Source: Burkholderiaceae bacterium (lineage in GTDB: Bacteria > Pseudomonadota > Gammaproteobacteria > Burkholderiales > Burkholderiaceae_C). Taken from it: 64,000 nucleotides of DNA. Location of the stretch: contig JACSRS010000200.1 in assembly GCA_014879655.1 (NCBI GenBank), positions 1 through 64,000 of the forward strand, in the 5' to 3' direction. Position numbers and translations under genes: made by a program. Shown piece after piece: positions 3,331 to 51,785 of this stretch (its first letter is position 1; every line of letters begins with the position of its first letter). Under the pieces are notes generated by a model. The model was given only the letters and a program-made list of their open reading frames with translations. It did no database searches and had not been told where the DNA came from.

Positions 3331-3612
3331 TCATTCGATCACGTCGCCGCGCGTCAGGTAGCGTGCCAGCGCCACGGTGGAGGCGAAACCCAGCATCGCG
3401 ATGATCAGTGCCGCTTCGAACACCAGGGCGGTCTGCTGGCGGATGCCCAGCAGCAGCACCAGCGAAACCGTGTTGAGGTAGAGCGTGTCAACGGCCAGCA
3501 CCCTGTCGATGGCGCTGGGGCCGCGGAACAACCGCCAGCAGCACAGCAACATGCCCACCGAGACTGCCCCGGTGGCGATATTCAGTGCCAGCATCAGAAA
3601 GCTCGTGCTCAT
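3331..3612 (-). CDS. mnhF: Mrp/Mnh antiporter subunit F
   Basis: A 93-residue protein with three membrane segments and the typical RLFRGPSAIDRVLAVD loop followed by a helix with LVFEAALIIAMLGF. It overlaps the stop of subunit E by four bases, as expected for a co-translated operon. MrpF is required for a working antiporter complex in characterised species, but its exact role is not defined. Confidence 0.93.
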   Translation of the reverse strand: MSTSFLMLALNIATGAVSVGMLLCCWRLFRGPSAIDRVLAVDTLYLNTVSLVLLLGIRQQTALVFEAALIIAMLGFASTVALARYLTRGDVIE

Positions 3613-44628: not shown

Positions 44629-46260
44629 GTGAGCAAAGCTGAAAACCCGCTTTCCCGCCCGCCCGCCGTCTGCGTGATGGTGCTGGGCACCACCAGCGGC
44701 GCCGGCAAGAGCTGGCTGGCCACCGCGCTGTGCCGCTACTACGCGCGCCAGGGTTTGAAGGTCGCGCCGTTCAAGGCCCAGAACATGAGCAACAACGCGC
44801 GGGTGGTGCAAGGCGAAGGCAGGAGCGACACGCAGTGCGCGACCGTGGGGGCGGAAGGTTTCGCCGCCGGGCCGCCCCAAGGCGAAACGCGGCCCCCCCG
44901 GGGGGCAGGGAGCGACACGCAGTGCGCGACCGTGGGGGCTGAAATTGGTTCAGCTCAGTATTTCCAGGCATTGGCGGCGCGCGCCGAGCCGGACGCGCGC
45001 ATGAACCCGCTGCTGCTCAAACCCGAGGCCGATACGCACAGTCAGGTGGTGCTGATGGGGCAGGTCAGCGCCGAACTGACCGCGCTGCCCTGGCGCGAAC
45101 GCGGCCCGCGTGTCTGGCCGCAGATTGCGGCGGCGCTCGATGCCCTGCGGGCGGAAAACGACGTGGTGGTGATCGAAGGCGCCGGCTCGCCGGCCGAAAT
45201 CAACCTGTCGGACTGCGACATCGTGAACCTGCGGGTCGCCCGCCACGCCGGTGCACGCTGCCTGCTGGTCACCGACATCGACCGGGGCGGCGCGTTTGCC
45301 CATCTGTTTGGCACCTGGGCCCTGTTGCCCGAGGCCGACTGTGCGCTGATCCACGGTTTTGTGCTGAACAAGTTCCGCGGCGACCCGGCCCTGCTGGCGC
45401 CCGGCCCGCAGATGCTGCACCAGCTGACCGGCGTGCCGACGGTGGCAACGCTGCCCATGTGGTGGCAGCACGGCCTGCCCGAGGAAGACGGCGTGCTGCA
45501 CACGGCGCCGGTCCCGAACGGTGCGCCCGCCCGCACGGTGGCCGTGATCGCCTGGCCACGCATCAGCAACCTCGACGAGTTCCAGCCGCTGTGCAATGTG
45601 CCGGGGCTGCATCTGAAGTGGGCACGCTCGCCGGCGGATGTGGCCGGTGCCGACTGGATCATCCTGCCCGGCAGCAAGAACACCGTGCAGGACCTGGCCT
45701 GGCTGCGCGCGCAGGGACTGGACCGCGCCGTCGCCGCGCACGCGGGCGCCGGTCACCCGGTGCTCGGCATTTGCGGCGGCCTGCAGATGCTGGGGGAGGC
45801 GCTGATCGACCCGCAAGCCATCGACGGCAACGGCCCCGGGCTGGGCCTGCTGCCACTGGTCACGCTTTTCGAAGCTGAGAAAGCGCTTTCACGCACCACG
45901 GCCCGGTTCGGCGAGCTGGCCGGCGTCTGGGGCAAGCTTTCCGGCGTGTCCGTCAGCGGTTACGAGATTCACCAGGGTCAGACAGCGCAGCACCCGGCAA
46001 TGGCGCGATCCGGCGACGTGGCACGTGAGGCCCTGCAGGCAGCCGGGGGCGAATGCATCGGCTGGCAGAACGCCGCCGGCAACGTGCTGGGCCTGTACCT
46101 GCACGGCCTGTTTGAAGACGCGACCGTGATGCAGGCACTGTTCGGCGCGCACGTGCCGACGCTGGACAGCGTGTTCGACGGGCTCGCCGATTTCATCGAG
46201 CAGCACTTCGAGCCCGGCGTGCTTGACGCTCTGGCGCGCCCCTTGCCGGCCGGCGACTGA
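44629..46260 (+). CDS. cobQ: cobyric acid synthase, with in-frame insertion
   Basis: A 543-residue enzyme that amidates adenosylcobyrinic acid a,c-diamide to adenosylcobyric acid. The N-terminal ATPase domain has LGTTSGAGKSWLA and FKAQNMSNN. The glutaminase domain has GICGGLQMLG (the Cys nucleophile) and YEIHQGQT. About 39-40 extra residues split VVQGEG from EIGSAQYF, where other CobQ proteins have a short GGEIG link. The frame is kept. Whether the enzyme is active is open. Confidence 0.9.
   Translation: MSKAENPLSRPPAVCVMVLGTTSGAGKSWLATALCRYYARQGLKVAPFKAQNMSNNARVVQGEGRSDTQCATVGAEGFAAGPPQGETRPPRGAGSDTQCATVGAEIGSAQYFQALAARAEPDARMNPLLLKPEADTHSQVVLMGQVSAELTALPWRERGPRVWPQIAAALDALRAENDVVVIEGAGSPAEINLSDCDIVNLRVARHAGARCLLVTDIDRGGAFAHLFGTWALLPEADCALIHGFVLNKFRGDPALLAPGPQMLHQLTGVPTVATLPMWWQHGLPEEDGVLHTAPVPNGAPARTVAVIAWPRISNLDEFQPLCNVPGLHLKWARSPADVAGADWIILPGSKNTVQDLAWLRAQGLDRAVAAHAGAGHPVLGICGGLQMLGEALIDPQAIDGNGPGLGLLPLVTLFEAEKALSRTTARFGELAGVWGKLSGVSVSGYEIHQGQTAQHPAMARSGDVAREALQAAGGECIGWQNAAGNVLGLYLHGLFEDATVMQALFGAHVPTLDSVFDGLADFIEQHFEPGVLDALARPLPAGD
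44822..44943 (+). repeat. GC-rich palindromic element inserted in cobQ, with direct repeats
   Basis: Two 35-base direct repeats (44822-44856 and 44909-44943, one mismatch) flank a structured centre. The centre has GTTTCGCC (44858-44865) pairing with GGCGAAAC (44881-44888), and the palindrome CCCCCCGGGGGG (44894-44905). The repeat period is 87 bases, a multiple of three. Confidence 0.88.
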
Positions 46261-47343: not shown

Positions 47344-47808
47344 TCAATTCCGAGCCTTGATACTGGACGGCAGTTCCACAAAGTCTTCCGTTCTGGGAAG
47401 TGATTGATAGGCGGAGAGCACATTGGGTGGCGGCGCCACCAGCTTGCGCGCGTCAAGGTCCATGAAGCCGCCGGTGCTGATAACCCGGGCGCACAAAGCA
47501 CCCGCAGCGTTGAGAATTTCGTTCACCACCTTGAAGCGGCTGCCGTCGGGCGCCAGGCCGGCGATGGCGAACGTGATGCCGATCTCGTCCATCCACTTGA
47601 CCTCGCGGCGGTACTCCAGCTCGTCTTTCATGATGACGACGCCAAGCCGAAGCCGGATGAACTCCTCCAGCGGAAAGCCTTTTTGCGCCAGCATCAACAC
47701 GCGCGCATCCACCACCTTGTTCAGGTAGGCGGTGTTGGCCATATGCGAATTCCAGTCCATGTCAGCCCAGCCGGCAAGGAATTTCTGAACGGGGATGGGC
47801 GTCGTCAT
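47344..47808 (-). CDS. acyl-CoA thioesterase (hot-dog fold)
   Basis: A 154-residue 4HBT-type thioesterase-like protein with the opening WADMDWNSHMANTAYLNKVVDARV, which contains the Asp of this family. It likely hydrolyses an acyl-CoA. The ATG at 47808 is preferred over 47838. It is oriented with the DUF2164 gene. Confidence 0.82.
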   Translation of the reverse strand: MTTPIPVQKFLAGWADMDWNSHMANTAYLNKVVDARVLMLAQKGFPLEEFIRLRLGVVIMKDELEYRREVKWMDEIGITFAIAGLAPDGSRFKVVNEILNAAGALCARVISTGGFMDLDARKLVAPPPNVLSAYQSLPRTEDFVELPSSIKARN

Positions 47809-48135
47809 GGGCAGATTCTCCGGAAGCATCGCGGGCATCAGGACCTTGATGCTACAGGCAAGTCAGCGTGGAGGCCCGCGCCAGCCGAATCCGTCGGGCG
47901 CTGAAGGCGTCCTTCAGTAACGATCGGCCAAATAGCACACAGTCACCATCTGAAAGGGGTTTGGCCGTTTCCAGTCAGTGTCTCCGCTTGCCGGGATGGA
48001 TCGACACTCGCGCGCACGGGTTTGACAATCTGGTGGGCCCAGGCAGCACCTCGAACCCGGTTATTGTGCGGCTTTCGAAGGTCTTTCGAGTGCCCCAGGA
48101 GACTGGGTCCGGTCATTCAGTTCGCTCCAAAGCAG

Positions 48136-48198
48136 TCGGAACGTAAAAGTGAGGGGCTGCGCGCTTTTGCGCAGTCCCTCTCGACTGCCGGGTTGGGC
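48136..48198 (-). other. attC-like recombination site 3
   Basis: On the minus strand it starts with GCCCAAC (R''-like), just after the stop of the 48206 gene. A 12-base stem GAGGGACTGCGC / GCGCAGCCCCTC (one mismatch) follows, and it ends ACGTTCCGA (R'-like, degenerate). At 63 bases it is within the usual attC size range. It would mark the end of the cassette array. The rest of the 47809-48205 gap shows nothing coding that I can support. Confidence 0.6.
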
Positions 48199-48205
48199 AT
48201 AGCCG

Positions 48206-48592
48206 TCAAAAGAGCTTTGCCAATATTTGTGATTGAACTGCCGGATGAAACTCTTCGTACATTGTGTTTAACCGGACATTGTTTTTTTCCGTCGGCTTTG
48301 GGATGCGGAAGCTGTCTTTGACTACCCACTTGATATTCCTGCCCGCTGAAACAACTTGGCTGGTAGTGATAACTTGGTCGTCTGTAATTACACCAATAGC
48401 TTTGACAATAATATCGGGGCTGGTCGGAGAGAAGGACTTGATATATATGATGTCGCCAACTTTCAACGAACGCACAAATTGATGCAACTCAGGCGCATCG
48501 GTTATGTTCCACCCTGGGCCAGCTATGTTGTTTGCAATGAAATCATCGCTAACATCACCATCGTAATACGCGCCAACTGCATAAATTGCCAT
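48206..48592 (-). CDS. cassette-borne hypothetical, possible EVE/PUA-like domain
   Basis: A 128-residue soluble protein with a good AGGAGG site. The pattern AIYAVGAYYDGDVSDDFIANNIAGPGW ... LKVGDIIYIKSFSP ... IIVKAIGVI resembles small EVE/PUA-like modules that accompany defence or modified-base recognition proteins. That assignment is fold-level recall and weak. AT-richer than its neighbours and bounded by attC-like sites on both sides, so it looks acquired. Confidence 0.75.
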   Translation of the reverse strand: MAIYAVGAYYDGDVSDDFIANNIAGPGWNITDAPELHQFVRSLKVGDIIYIKSFSPTSPDIIVKAIGVITDDQVITTSQVVSAGRNIKWVVKDSFRIPKPTEKNNVRLNTMYEEFHPAVQSQILAKLF

Positions 48593-48616
48593 AGATGCCT
48601 CCTGAGTTATGTGAAT

Positions 48617-48657
48617 GCCCAACGTGCAGTTTGACCAGCCCTGCGCGAAGCGTTATA
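48617..48657 (-). other. attC-like recombination site 2 (short)
   Basis: On the minus strand it begins TATAAC four bases after the stop codon of the upstream cassette gene. A short imperfect stem CGCGCAG / CTGCACG follows, and it ends GTTGGGC (R', fits GTTRRRY). At 41 bases it is shorter than most attC sites. Confidence 0.5.
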
Positions 48658-48661
48658 AAAC

Positions 48662-49510
48662 CTATTTAATCTCATCAGAGGATGTGCAAATCGGATGCAC
48701 GCCTGAGATGACTGGATATTCGCAAACTTCATCAATACGTTTTCGATAAGCGTCAGATAAACATTGATTGTTTGCACATCTGTTGCGCTCAATAAGCCAT
48801 TTCTTTTGGGATTCTTTAAGATCAGCTCTTGCCCCATCGCCAATATCTGAAGCAAGCATGTATTTGTAATTTTCCGATAGCGCACCATCCAATTTGCCAA
48901 GCAGCGGGTCACTGCAAATCGCCTTTTCCGAGAATGTGGATGCCTTGGCACAGTCGAAACTTGGTGTCCAGTTCTTTTCCGGTGCCATTTTAGATTGATC
49001 AGGAGCGGTTGAAATTGCTGGAGTGGATGGAGGCTCAGAGACAGGCGCAGGAACAGGTGTGGTCTGTGCTTGGGGCGTTGAACCTGTGGATGGCGAAGCT
49101 GGACCGTCTTTTGCTGCGCGTCCCTTTTTGATGCCCTCGGCAATGGCATATTGCAGGGTCAATAGATCACCTCTAGCAATGCCTCCAACAGAAACGATGT
49201 GCTGATTCTTGTCATCAAGTTGCGATTCGTAAGTTATTGGCAGTTCAACCGTACCTCCGGCAATCAGTTTTGCTTTGCAGCTATATTTTTTGATTTTCTC
49301 GTCAAAAGCGCTCGCTCTGGGAAACTCAATTTTCATGTTATCTTGAAGTTCTTTGTCACTTACCCCTTCACGCCCGCCAAGCTGTTCGACGATGATCTGT
49401 CGTATCAGTGAGAAAGTATCTTCATCCGAGCATTTTGGCGGTTCTTTTGCGCACCCTGCAATGAAAGCAGTTACCAGAGTGACAATAATCGTTGACTTCA
49501 TTTTATGCAT
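48662..49510 (-). CDS. cassette-borne lipoprotein with LprI-like (DUF1311) domain
   Basis: A 282-residue predicted lipoprotein. The signal peptide ends in the lipobox FIAGC (Cys at 20). A linker rich in Pro, Ser and Thr (about residues 135-180) joins two parts. The C-terminal part is LprI/DUF1311-like: FDCAKASTFSEKAICSDPLLGKLD and WLIERNRCANNQCLSDAYRKRI, with paired cysteines. LprI-type domains include lysozyme inhibitors, so a role against host or competitor lysozyme is possible. AAGGGG precedes the ATG. Confidence 0.82.
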   Translation of the reverse strand: MHKMKSTIIVTLVTAFIAGCAKEPPKCSDEDTFSLIRQIIVEQLGGREGVSDKELQDNMKIEFPRASAFDEKIKKYSCKAKLIAGGTVELPITYESQLDDKNQHIVSVGGIARGDLLTLQYAIAEGIKKGRAAKDGPASPSTGSTPQAQTTPVPAPVSEPPSTPAISTAPDQSKMAPEKNWTPSFDCAKASTFSEKAICSDPLLGKLDGALSENYKYMLASDIGDGARADLKESQKKWLIERNRCANNQCLSDAYRKRIDEVCEYPVISGVHPICTSSDEIK

Positions 49511-49611
49511 GATTTCCCCTTGTGATGAATGAAAGAATTAGATGCCCAACGTGATGTCCAGAGCATAAAAGACTGCTCTGGAAGTTGGGCACAGCTCCAT
49601 AAGTTGGCCAT
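49498..49611 (-). CDS. small ORF running through attC site 1 into the cassette gene
   Basis: A 37-codon frame with AGGAGG six bases before its ATG. It reads through the attC-like site and ends 13 bases inside the lipoprotein gene in another frame. The arrangement resembles the short ORFs at integron attI sites that help translate the first cassette. The peptide (MANLWSCAQLPEQSF...) has no recognised domain. It may be chance. Confidence 0.35.
   Translation of the reverse strand: MANLWSCAQLPEQSFMLWTSRWASNSFIHHKGKSCIK
49544..49590 (-). other. attC-like recombination site 1
   Basis: On the minus strand: GCCCAAC, TT, CCAGAGCA, an eight-base loop, TGCTCTGG, ACATCAC, then GTTGGGC. The outer boxes fit RYYYAAC and GTTRRRY and pair perfectly; the inner stem also pairs perfectly with an offset. 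At 47 bases it is short for attC. The lipoprotein cassette begins right after it. In the rest of 49591-49895 I see only a weak hairpin next to GTTAAAC. Confidence 0.65.
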
Positions 49612-49895
49612 CAAATCCTCCTGAAAGTGGCTTGTAGCCTCACTTGCGCTGTTTTCCCGCCTTGTTTAACGTATCTCTGTATTCTGGCAGATACAGTGCC
49701 GGGCGGGCCATGCATTCCGGTGTTCCGGGTCGAATCTGGATCAAACTGGATGGGCCAGCCCAATGCCCGCCGCCGCTGCTCTTCAGACGATTAACCGTTC
49801 ACACAGTGCAATCAAAGCTGTCGAAAACGATGCCGGCAAAGCTTGGGCCGTTTGCGAAGTAAATCTCCCGTGGGCGCTCGGCGGTACCGTTCATT

Positions 49896-50804
49896 TCAGC
49901 GGACCTTGTGCGGCACCTGATAGTGCGCGCACAGCGTCTCGATCAACGAGCGCGCAAAGGCCGGCAGCTTGTTCGGGTCGCGCACCAGGATGTAGCGCTC
50001 GCGCACGCTCCAGGGCTCCAGCAGTTCGATCAGCGCCAAGCCCATGCTGGCCTGGTTGCGCCGCGCGGCGCTTTCGGGAACGATGCCGACGCCCACCCCG
50101 GCGCCGATCATGCGGCACATCGCGTCGAAGCTGCTGAGCTGGATGCGCAGCTTGAGCGGCCGGCCGAGTTTTTCCGTGACCTGGGCCAGGAAGGTCTGCA
50201 GCGTGCTGCCCTGCTGCATGCCGACCTGGTGCTCATCGAGCGTATCGGCGAAGGCGATGGTCTTGCGCATGGCAAACGGGTGGCTGCGGGCCGTGACGAG
50301 CACCAGCCGGTCGGTGCTGAAGTGAATGGCCTGCAGGCCCAGGCTATCGACCGGGCCGGCGACGATGCCGAGGTCGGCGCGCCCGTCGAGCACGCCTTTG
50401 GCGATTTCAGCATTCGGTTTTTCCTGAAGGTCGATGTTGACCTTGGGGTTGGCGGCCAGAAAGGCGGGCAGGATCTCGGGCAGAAAGTCCGATACCGCCG
50501 TGGTGTTGGCAAACACCCGCACATGGCCGCGCAGGCCGCCGCCGTATTCCTGCAGGTCGGCTCGCAGCTGGTCGGTCTGGCGCAGCACGCCGTGTGCGTG
50601 GTGCAGAAAGGCTTCGCCCGCCGGCGTCAGGCGCACGCCCCGCGCTTCGCGGTACAGCAGTGGCAGGCCGGCTTGCGCCTCCAGCGATTTCACGCGCGCG
50701 CTGGCCGCAGCCAGCGACAGGTGCTGGCCGGCGGCGGCGCGGGTCAGGCTGCCCTCGTTGGCCGCGCGAACGAACAGGCGCAGGTCGGTCAGGTCAAAGT
50801 GCAT
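49896..50804 (-). CDS. LysR-family transcriptional regulator
   Basis: A 302-residue regulator. The helix-turn-helix is FVRAANEGSLTRAAAGQHLSLAAASARVKSLEAQAG, followed by the usual effector domain. The frame extends upstream to 51131, but the family start MHFDLTDLRLFVRAA is at 50804. It is divergent from the MaoC-type gene, with a T-N11-A operator candidate between them, so it probably controls the catabolic cluster. Confidence 0.92.
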   Translation of the reverse strand: MHFDLTDLRLFVRAANEGSLTRAAAGQHLSLAAASARVKSLEAQAGLPLLYREARGVRLTPAGEAFLHHAHGVLRQTDQLRADLQEYGGGLRGHVRVFANTTAVSDFLPEILPAFLAANPKVNIDLQEKPNAEIAKGVLDGRADLGIVAGPVDSLGLQAIHFSTDRLVLVTARSHPFAMRKTIAFADTLDEHQVGMQQGSTLQTFLAQVTEKLGRPLKLRIQLSSFDAMCRMIGAGVGVGIVPESAARRNQASMGLALIELLEPWSVRERYILVRDPNKLPAFARSLIETLCAHYQVPHKVR

Positions 50805-50821
50805 CGCCCGGATGCTAGCAA

Positions 50822-50844
50822 AGCCTTCGGTTCTGGTGAAGGCT
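50822..50844. promoter_or_regulatory. inverted repeat, candidate LysR operator
   Basis: AGCCTTC (50822-50828) and GAAGGCT (50838-50844) are perfect seven-base arms around nine bases, containing T-N11-A. It lies between the divergent LysR and hydratase genes. Confidence 0.6.
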
Positions 50845-50897
50845 AGTTCAGGAATTTGCAGATTGCGCCGGGCCGGCAAAGCAGCGACGATGACGCC

Positions 50898-51785
50898 ATG
50901 GACGATCAGACCCGCACCCTGGACGCCGCCACGCTCGCGCACCTGCAAAGCTGGATCGGCAAGAGCGAAACCCTGCACGACGACATCACCGCAGCGCCGG
51001 TGCGGGGCCTGGCCGCCACGCTGGACCGCGACGACCCGTTGCCCGCGCCCGGCACCACGCTGGCGCCGCTGTGGCACTGGCTGTACTTTTTGCCCCAGCA
51101 CCGGCAAAGCCAGCTCGGACCGGATGGTCACGCCATGCGCGGCGGTTTCCTGCCGCCGGTGCCGCTGCCCCGGCGCATGTGGGCCGGCGGGCGCCTGATC
51201 TGGTTGCCGCAGAACCCGCTGGTGGTGGGCGACGCGGTGGAGCGCCGCTCACGCATCGAATCGGTCACGCACAAGACCGGCCGCAGCGGCGAAATGGTGT
51301 TTGTGCTGGTCAGGCACGAGATCCACAACGCCACGGGCCTGGCGCTGACGGAAGAGCATGACATCGTCTACAGAGCTGCAGCGACTCCAACCGATCCTGC
51401 GCCGACCCCGATCCCGGCCGAAACCGGCGCCGCCTGGCAGCGCGAAATCGTCCCCGACGACGTGTTGCTGTTCCGTTATTCGGCACTCACTTTCAACGGC
51501 CACCGCATTCACTACGACCGCCAGTACGTGACGCAGGTTGAGGGCTACCCCGGCCTGATCGTGCACGGCCCGCTGATCGCCACGCTGCTGGTCGATCTGG
51601 TGCGCCGCCACGCACCGGCCGGTGCATTCGTGCGGTCGTTCAACTTCAAGGCGGTGCGGCCGACTTTTGACCTGCACCCGTTCCGGCTGAGCGGCCAGCC
51701 CTCGCCAGACGGCAAGTCCGTGCGCCTGTGGGCCCAGGACCACGAAGGCTGGCTGACCATGCAGGGCGTGGCCGAACTCGCTTGA
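50898..51785 (+). CDS. MaoC-like acyl-CoA hydratase (mesaconyl/itaconyl type)
   Basis: A 295-residue protein with a double hot-dog arrangement. The N-terminal FAS1-like dehydratase part contains FLPQHRQSQLGPDGHAMRGGFLPPVPLPRRMWAGG, and the C-terminal part contains FNGHRIHYDRQYVT ... YPGLIVHGPLIATLL. This layout is typical of mesaconyl-C4-CoA and itaconyl-CoA hydratases and HTD2-like enzymes. The exact substrate cannot be read from sequence. The upstream Met at 50856 is not favoured. Confidence 0.85.
   Translation: MDDQTRTLDAATLAHLQSWIGKSETLHDDITAAPVRGLAATLDRDDPLPAPGTTLAPLWHWLYFLPQHRQSQLGPDGHAMRGGFLPPVPLPRRMWAGGRLIWLPQNPLVVGDAVERRSRIESVTHKTGRSGEMVFVLVRHEIHNATGLALTEEHDIVYRAAATPTDPAPTPIPAETGAAWQREIVPDDVLLFRYSALTFNGHRIHYDRQYVTQVEGYPGLIVHGPLIATLLVDLVRRHAPAGAFVRSFNFKAVRPTFDLHPFRLSGQPSPDGKSVRLWAQDHEGWLTMQGVAELA

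Follow-up and report, generated by a model that had tools for sequence, protein, structure and literature searches.

Two genes and three core boxes on the minus strand

In the window, which denotes the whole 64,000-nucleotide stretch of DNA that was analysed, the minus strand carries two AT-rich genes in the same orientation, bounded by a LysR gene (49896–50807) and a thioesterase gene (47344–47808). Three core boxes are found on this strand: GTTGGGC at 49544–49550, GTTGGGC at 48617–48623 and GTTCCGA at 48136–48142. A preliminary description placed three attC-like sites at these boxes, and the minus-strand cores, re-read from the sequence, lie where it put them. The cassette limits were set by cutting at the G^TT of the cores. 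Cassette 1 (48623–49549, minus strand; 927 bp, 45.8% GC) is delimited by the first and second cores, and cassette 2 (48142–48622, minus strand; 481 bp, 47% GC) by the second and third. The GC content of the cassettes, 46–47% compared with 64.7% for the whole window, bears out the earlier remark that the genes are AT-richer than their surroundings.

The cassette 1 gene (48662–49510, minus strand) encodes a protein of 282 aa with a lipoprotein-like signal and a C-terminal LprI domain (Pfam PF07007, 25.0 bits; cut-off 22), which suggests a cell-envelope LprI-domain lipoprotein. The cassette 2 gene (48206–48592, minus strand) encodes a protein of 128 aa with a predicted EVE/YTH (PUA-like) fold. 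Its AlphaFold model has a pLDDT of 90.3, and a Foldseek search with this model gave PH1033 (1wmm/2hd9) as the best match, followed by YTH and EVE proteins (fold match E = 2.8e-4). The predicted fold is like that of EVE/YTH (PUA-like) readers of modified bases such as PH1033, whereas the identity to PH1033-type readers is 12–16%, the TM score is about 0.5–0.64 and Pfam gives no match. The protein may, on the basis of this model, be a PUA-like reader of modified nucleic-acid bases. PADLOC returned no hits and assigned no family to it.

Among 399 genomes of the order, the cassette 2 gene was found in its own genome and as one weak match of 26%. Relatives of its product that are 30–69% identical occur in Mangrovibacter, Psychrobacter, Pseudoalteromonas, Bacteroidetes, spirochaetes and Clostridia, and an integron cassette protein of Pseudoalteromonas is 65% identical. 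In Pseudoalteromonas sp. T1lg48 (L073), the homolog is flanked by attC sites at 2903–2975 and 3412–3512, in an array that extends to at least 5397, and its downstream attC has an R'' (ACATAAC) that complements the R' of the same cassette exactly. The cassette 2 gene is a true cassette elsewhere.

The second gene is followed by an attC

IntI was detected above the curated cut-off in 63 of 151 family genomes, and regions beside integron integrases in such relatives were taken as the source of attC sites. The sites were extracted by R''/R' complementarity and fold, and 22 of them were aligned to build a covariance model (R1) that contains no window sequence. The helices of R1 covary: 9 pairs are altered on both sides, and the covariation score is 0.358 compared with 0.120 after shuffling. 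The top R1 match in the 64-kb window is 48135–48198 (21.0 bits, E = 0.0055, filters off), whereas control DNA, 166 kb taken from relatives around the LysR–MaoC query region, reaches at most 15.6 bits (default filters).

This match is S2 (48136–48198, minus strand), the attC of cassette 2, with R'' at 48192–48198, L arms at 48169–48182 and 48151–48162, and the core GTTCCGA at 48136–48142. Its fold has z = −5.09 on the plus strand. The R'' of S2, GCCCAAC, pairs perfectly with the R' GTTGGGC at the start of cassette 2. When S2 is joined to its own cassette start (TTGGGC), it forms a 7-bp R stem, 5-nt spacers and an L stem with three bulged bases on one arm, so that both the R''/R' and the L''/L' pairing of an attC are found with extrahelical bases. 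The joined site folds at −34.3 kcal/mol, a value that none of 500 shuffles reached. S2 is a real attC with canonical anatomy once it is joined to its own cassette start, and its final core, GTTCCGA, is a non-cassette half-site that is not the cassette's own.

The site between the cassettes, S1 (48617–48658, minus strand), combines the core GTTGGGC at 48617–48623 with an R''-like TTATAAC at 48652–48658. This 42-nt site fails the covariance model, with 8.0 bits over 19 nt, and its fold (z = −1.05) is no better than that of shuffles. As a folded attC it is indistinguishable from chance; it is probably a decayed, truncated or minimal attC of cassette 1 of which only the core has been kept.

The chance-level score of S1, together with the presence of AT-rich genes in a GC-rich genome, would also suit two ordinary horizontally acquired genes with boxes that are fortuitous or belong to hairpin terminators. 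Scans of the region for promoters and terminators gave nothing above chance and no terminator-like site, and an Rfam scan gave no relevant family. In addition, S2 outscores all control DNA, gene 2 is a cassette in another genome, and homology to attI is found before cassette 1 (see below). This explanation is scarcely credible.

The first site is the attI of the platform

The site before the first gene is S0 (49544–49590, minus strand). With its upstream part, it comprises the core GTTGGGC (49544–49550), an inner inverted repeat CCAGAGCA/TGCTCTGG (49574–49581/49558–49565, minus strand) and a conserved upstream half reaching 49639. S0 is the second-best R1 match in the window (12.8 bits), which is not significant as an attC (E = 0.62), and none of 200 shuffles equals its fold. 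The segment 49548–49639 is 75% identical over 92 bp (E = 8e-11) to the stretch between an IntI stub and the first cassette on another contig of the same genome, C62. A generic attI HMM built from 12 other IntI-adjacent attI sites gave a weak match on C62 (E = 0.42) and next to nothing in the window; this HMM is too divergent for the window's attI, and the direct homology search succeeded.

Homologs of the 118-bp region at window 49543–49660 were detected in 34 of 401 family genomes, some of the matches being short, and homologs of the C62 attI stretch in 37 of 401. Twenty attI loci were fetched. In three of them (L152, L154 and L160), the site is flanked on one side by an intact IntI, of which more than 330 residues could be aligned, and on the other by attC arrays, so that it lies between intI and the first cassette. 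The window's own site ends in a GTTRRRY core (GTTGGGC), and the window itself is without intI. Seven carry IntI stubs only (L149, L150, L153, L155, L157, L161 and L163), and no IntI was detected in the remaining ten. A strong attC follows the attI-like site in at least 11 of the 20. Because these homologs sit between intact IntI and attC arrays, homology and position identify S0 (49544–49639, minus strand) as the attI of the platform and not as an attC.

The preliminary description had counted all three sites as attC-like and had inferred a cluster of attC sites lacking an integrase (CALIN). Under that reading, the first attC would be the leftover of a lost upstream cassette. S0 does have a perfect R''/R' pair (GCCCAAC/GTTGGGC) with an inner 9-bp stem, and it ranks second with the attC model. 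However, S0 with 50 bp upstream is homologous to the IntI–array junction in three genomes and to the flank of an IntI stub in seven more, and S1 does not score. Both features that gave S0 the look of an attC, GCCCAAC and the AGAGCA/TGCTCT repeat, recur across the attI family. A strict CALIN is very unlikely. Of the three proposed sites, S2 stands as an attC, S0 is reassigned to attI and S1 fails the model; the expectation that at least two would score as attC was not borne out, since only S2 passes R1.

The same homology bears on the possibility that an integrase inserted the cassettes at a secondary site outside any integron, where there never was a platform. It is favoured by the lack of any intI remnant at the locus and by the outer half of S2, which reads GTTCCGA rather than GTTRRRY. 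The 92 bp of attI homology before cassette 1 argue against it, as the upstream half of an attI family is unexpected at a secondary site, and we regard this alternative as even less likely than a strict CALIN.

The region upstream of attI (49640–49788, minus strand) has no IntI similarity and recurs in three other genera, in copies that also lack intI. L147 and L151 match the window around and upstream of attI at 73–74% over about 235–242 bp, and L158 does so at 84% over 98 bp. These three loci are intI-less attI copies with eroded cores that lie before ordinary-looking genes, and they possibly represent an old attI lineage without intI that has been put to new use as a gene leader. A LexA-like palindrome in this region, CTGT-N12-ACAG at 49677–49696, was rejected. 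The LexA box is CTGT-N8-ACAG, and the palindrome is not claimed as a LexA site because its spacing is N12 rather than N8.

A leader ORF spans the attI core

The attI contains a leader ORF of 37 codons (MANLWSCAQLPEQSFMLWTSRW...; 49498–49611, minus strand) preceded by the Shine-Dalgarno sequence AGGAGG (49617–49622). This frame reads through the core because GTTGG supplies no stop, and it ends in a TGA that shares bases with the second ATG of cassette 1. The attI homologs share an AGGAGG-like Shine-Dalgarno sequence, an ATG and a frame with the consensus MTNLWSSAQLIEQVLLWTLR that reaches the core as CGT TRR. The stop of the leader is set by the start of the cassette: GTTAG or GTTAA gives a stop, whereas GTTGG reads on. 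The frame is open to the core in 20 of 22 attI copies, which have the ORF-11-like layout of a Shine-Dalgarno sequence, an ATG and a frame across the crossover. No selection at the peptide level was seen in the 22 copies; the synonymous fraction is 0.20 compared with 0.24 expected, and without an excess of synonymous changes the leader peptide is not under visible selection.

In class 1 attI1, ORF-11/ORF-18 consists of a Shine-Dalgarno sequence and a short ORF spanning the crossover, whose TAG stop is given or not by the GTTRRRY of the cassette (PMC8876359). Amino-acid changes in ORF-11 are reported to have only slight effects (reviewed in PMC8876359). The leader described here follows the same logic of a Shine-Dalgarno sequence and a short ORF with a cassette-dependent stop, whereas its sequence differs and its frame is longer (20 codons to the core). 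By analogy, the leader ORF may aid cassette expression.

No integrase at the locus, and other integron loci in the genome

The earlier observation that no integrase is in view is upheld. No IntI was detected in 49000–51500 of the window, and at this locus no intI stands beside attI as in a complete integron. No intact IntI exceeds the cut-off in the genome assembly (227 contigs, 96% complete), which may have missed an intact intI at another place; because the assembly is fragmented, the absence of intact intI from the genome is not proven. Two distinct N-terminal IntI stubs occur in the same genome, on C62 (residues 11–51) and C185 (residues 21–85), and further attC sites are present on C62 (43.5 and 28.6 bits), C206 (29.1 and 19.3 bits) and C185 (26.4 and 15.4 bits). 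Therefore, the genome holds several decayed integron loci.

The C62 locus (L011, 6961–9190) is a second decayed integron with an N-terminal IntI stub, an attI and three attC sites by eye, two of which scored. Its cargo consists of small membrane-protein cassettes, and the last unit resembles a VapBC-type toxin–antitoxin pair. The third locus, on C185 (L010, 486–2505), has a different IntI stub and degraded attC sites at 1520–1643 and 2447–2505. On C206 (L068, 4740–5229), two attC sites surround one small gene and no IntI is present in the 7.4 kb fetched, which makes this locus a true two-attC CALIN. A motif GCCTAAC...TATGGACTCCCCC follows the attC R'' in two genera (L011 9190–9220; L046 about 2443). 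This motif may be the end of an attC-targeting insertion sequence of the IS1111 type.

The closest relatives by region (L113 and L116) keep cobQ and the LysR–MaoC–acyl-CoA dehydrogenase genes, and their cobQ–LysR interval is filled by other genes, cobT or a methyltransferase. A relative lacking exactly 48136–49550, which the preliminary description had proposed as support, was not found among those compared. These comparisons support the view that the cobQ–LysR interval is variable, rather than a precise empty site. The cobQ gene itself (44629–46260) contains about 45 extra codons (window 44822–44943), inserted in frame between two 35-nt direct repeats; the inserted sequence is a member of an interspersed repeat that is matched 17 times in the genome.

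An attI-anchored integron remnant and its known counterparts

We conclude, with a probability of about 0.92, that the locus is an integron remnant in which an attI and two captured cassettes are retained and the integrase gene has been deleted. The proposal that the two genes are integron cassettes of foreign origin is supported. A past integrase, encoded at this locus or supplied in trans by a sister platform, would have joined the single-stranded attC of circular cassettes to the G^TT of the attI core. Joining at the attI core would account for the two genes in line, and attC–attI joining for the start of cassette 1 in the attI core and for S2, which keeps its own R'' and ends in the non-cassette GTTCCGA. 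The intI gene was presumably lost by deletion, and the cassettes would no longer be shuffled unless an integrase acts in trans. Their expression would start from a promoter upstream of attI, with the leader ORF assisting.

It is possible, but on balance doubtful, that the whole attI family serves as a set of fixed expression platforms that are still in use after intI loss, perhaps with one remaining integrase acting on them in trans. The family was not found in the literature searched. It would be present in about 9% of the sampled family genomes, in most cases with no intact integrase alongside and often with 2–3 copies per genome. Each copy would have an ORF-11-like leader whose stop is set by the cassette that comes in (TAG, TAA or read-through TGG).

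An attI is recognised here without its integrase, and the same sequence retrieves dozens of relatives, with complete integrons at one end of the range and stubs that keep intact arrays at the other. They form a natural series on integrase loss with retention of captured genes. This series also bears on whether attI sites in general carry an ORF-11-like leader or whether it is peculiar to class 1.

By default, IntegronFinder 2 requires at least two attC sites for a CALIN, and attI sites outside class 1 are poorly described and undetected by the program (PMC9024848). Loci like this one are filed as CALIN or missed by programs because a non-class-1 attI is hard to recognise. Like the CALIN and single attC elements of IntegronFinder, the window locus has an attC without a neighbouring integrase; unlike a CALIN, only one attC passes, as judged with model R1, and the attI is still there. 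The CALIN label is thus inexact, and the locus is better described as an attI-anchored, integrase-deleted integron. The chromosomal integrons of Xanthomonas with inactivated intI, in which the platform is fixed, intI is deleted or truncated and the cassettes are kept (PMC12444791), share with it a chromosomal platform that has lost intI and kept its cassettes. The window locus differs from them in lineage and position, in having only two cassettes and in its distinct attI family, and its genome carries two further IntI stubs on other contigs.
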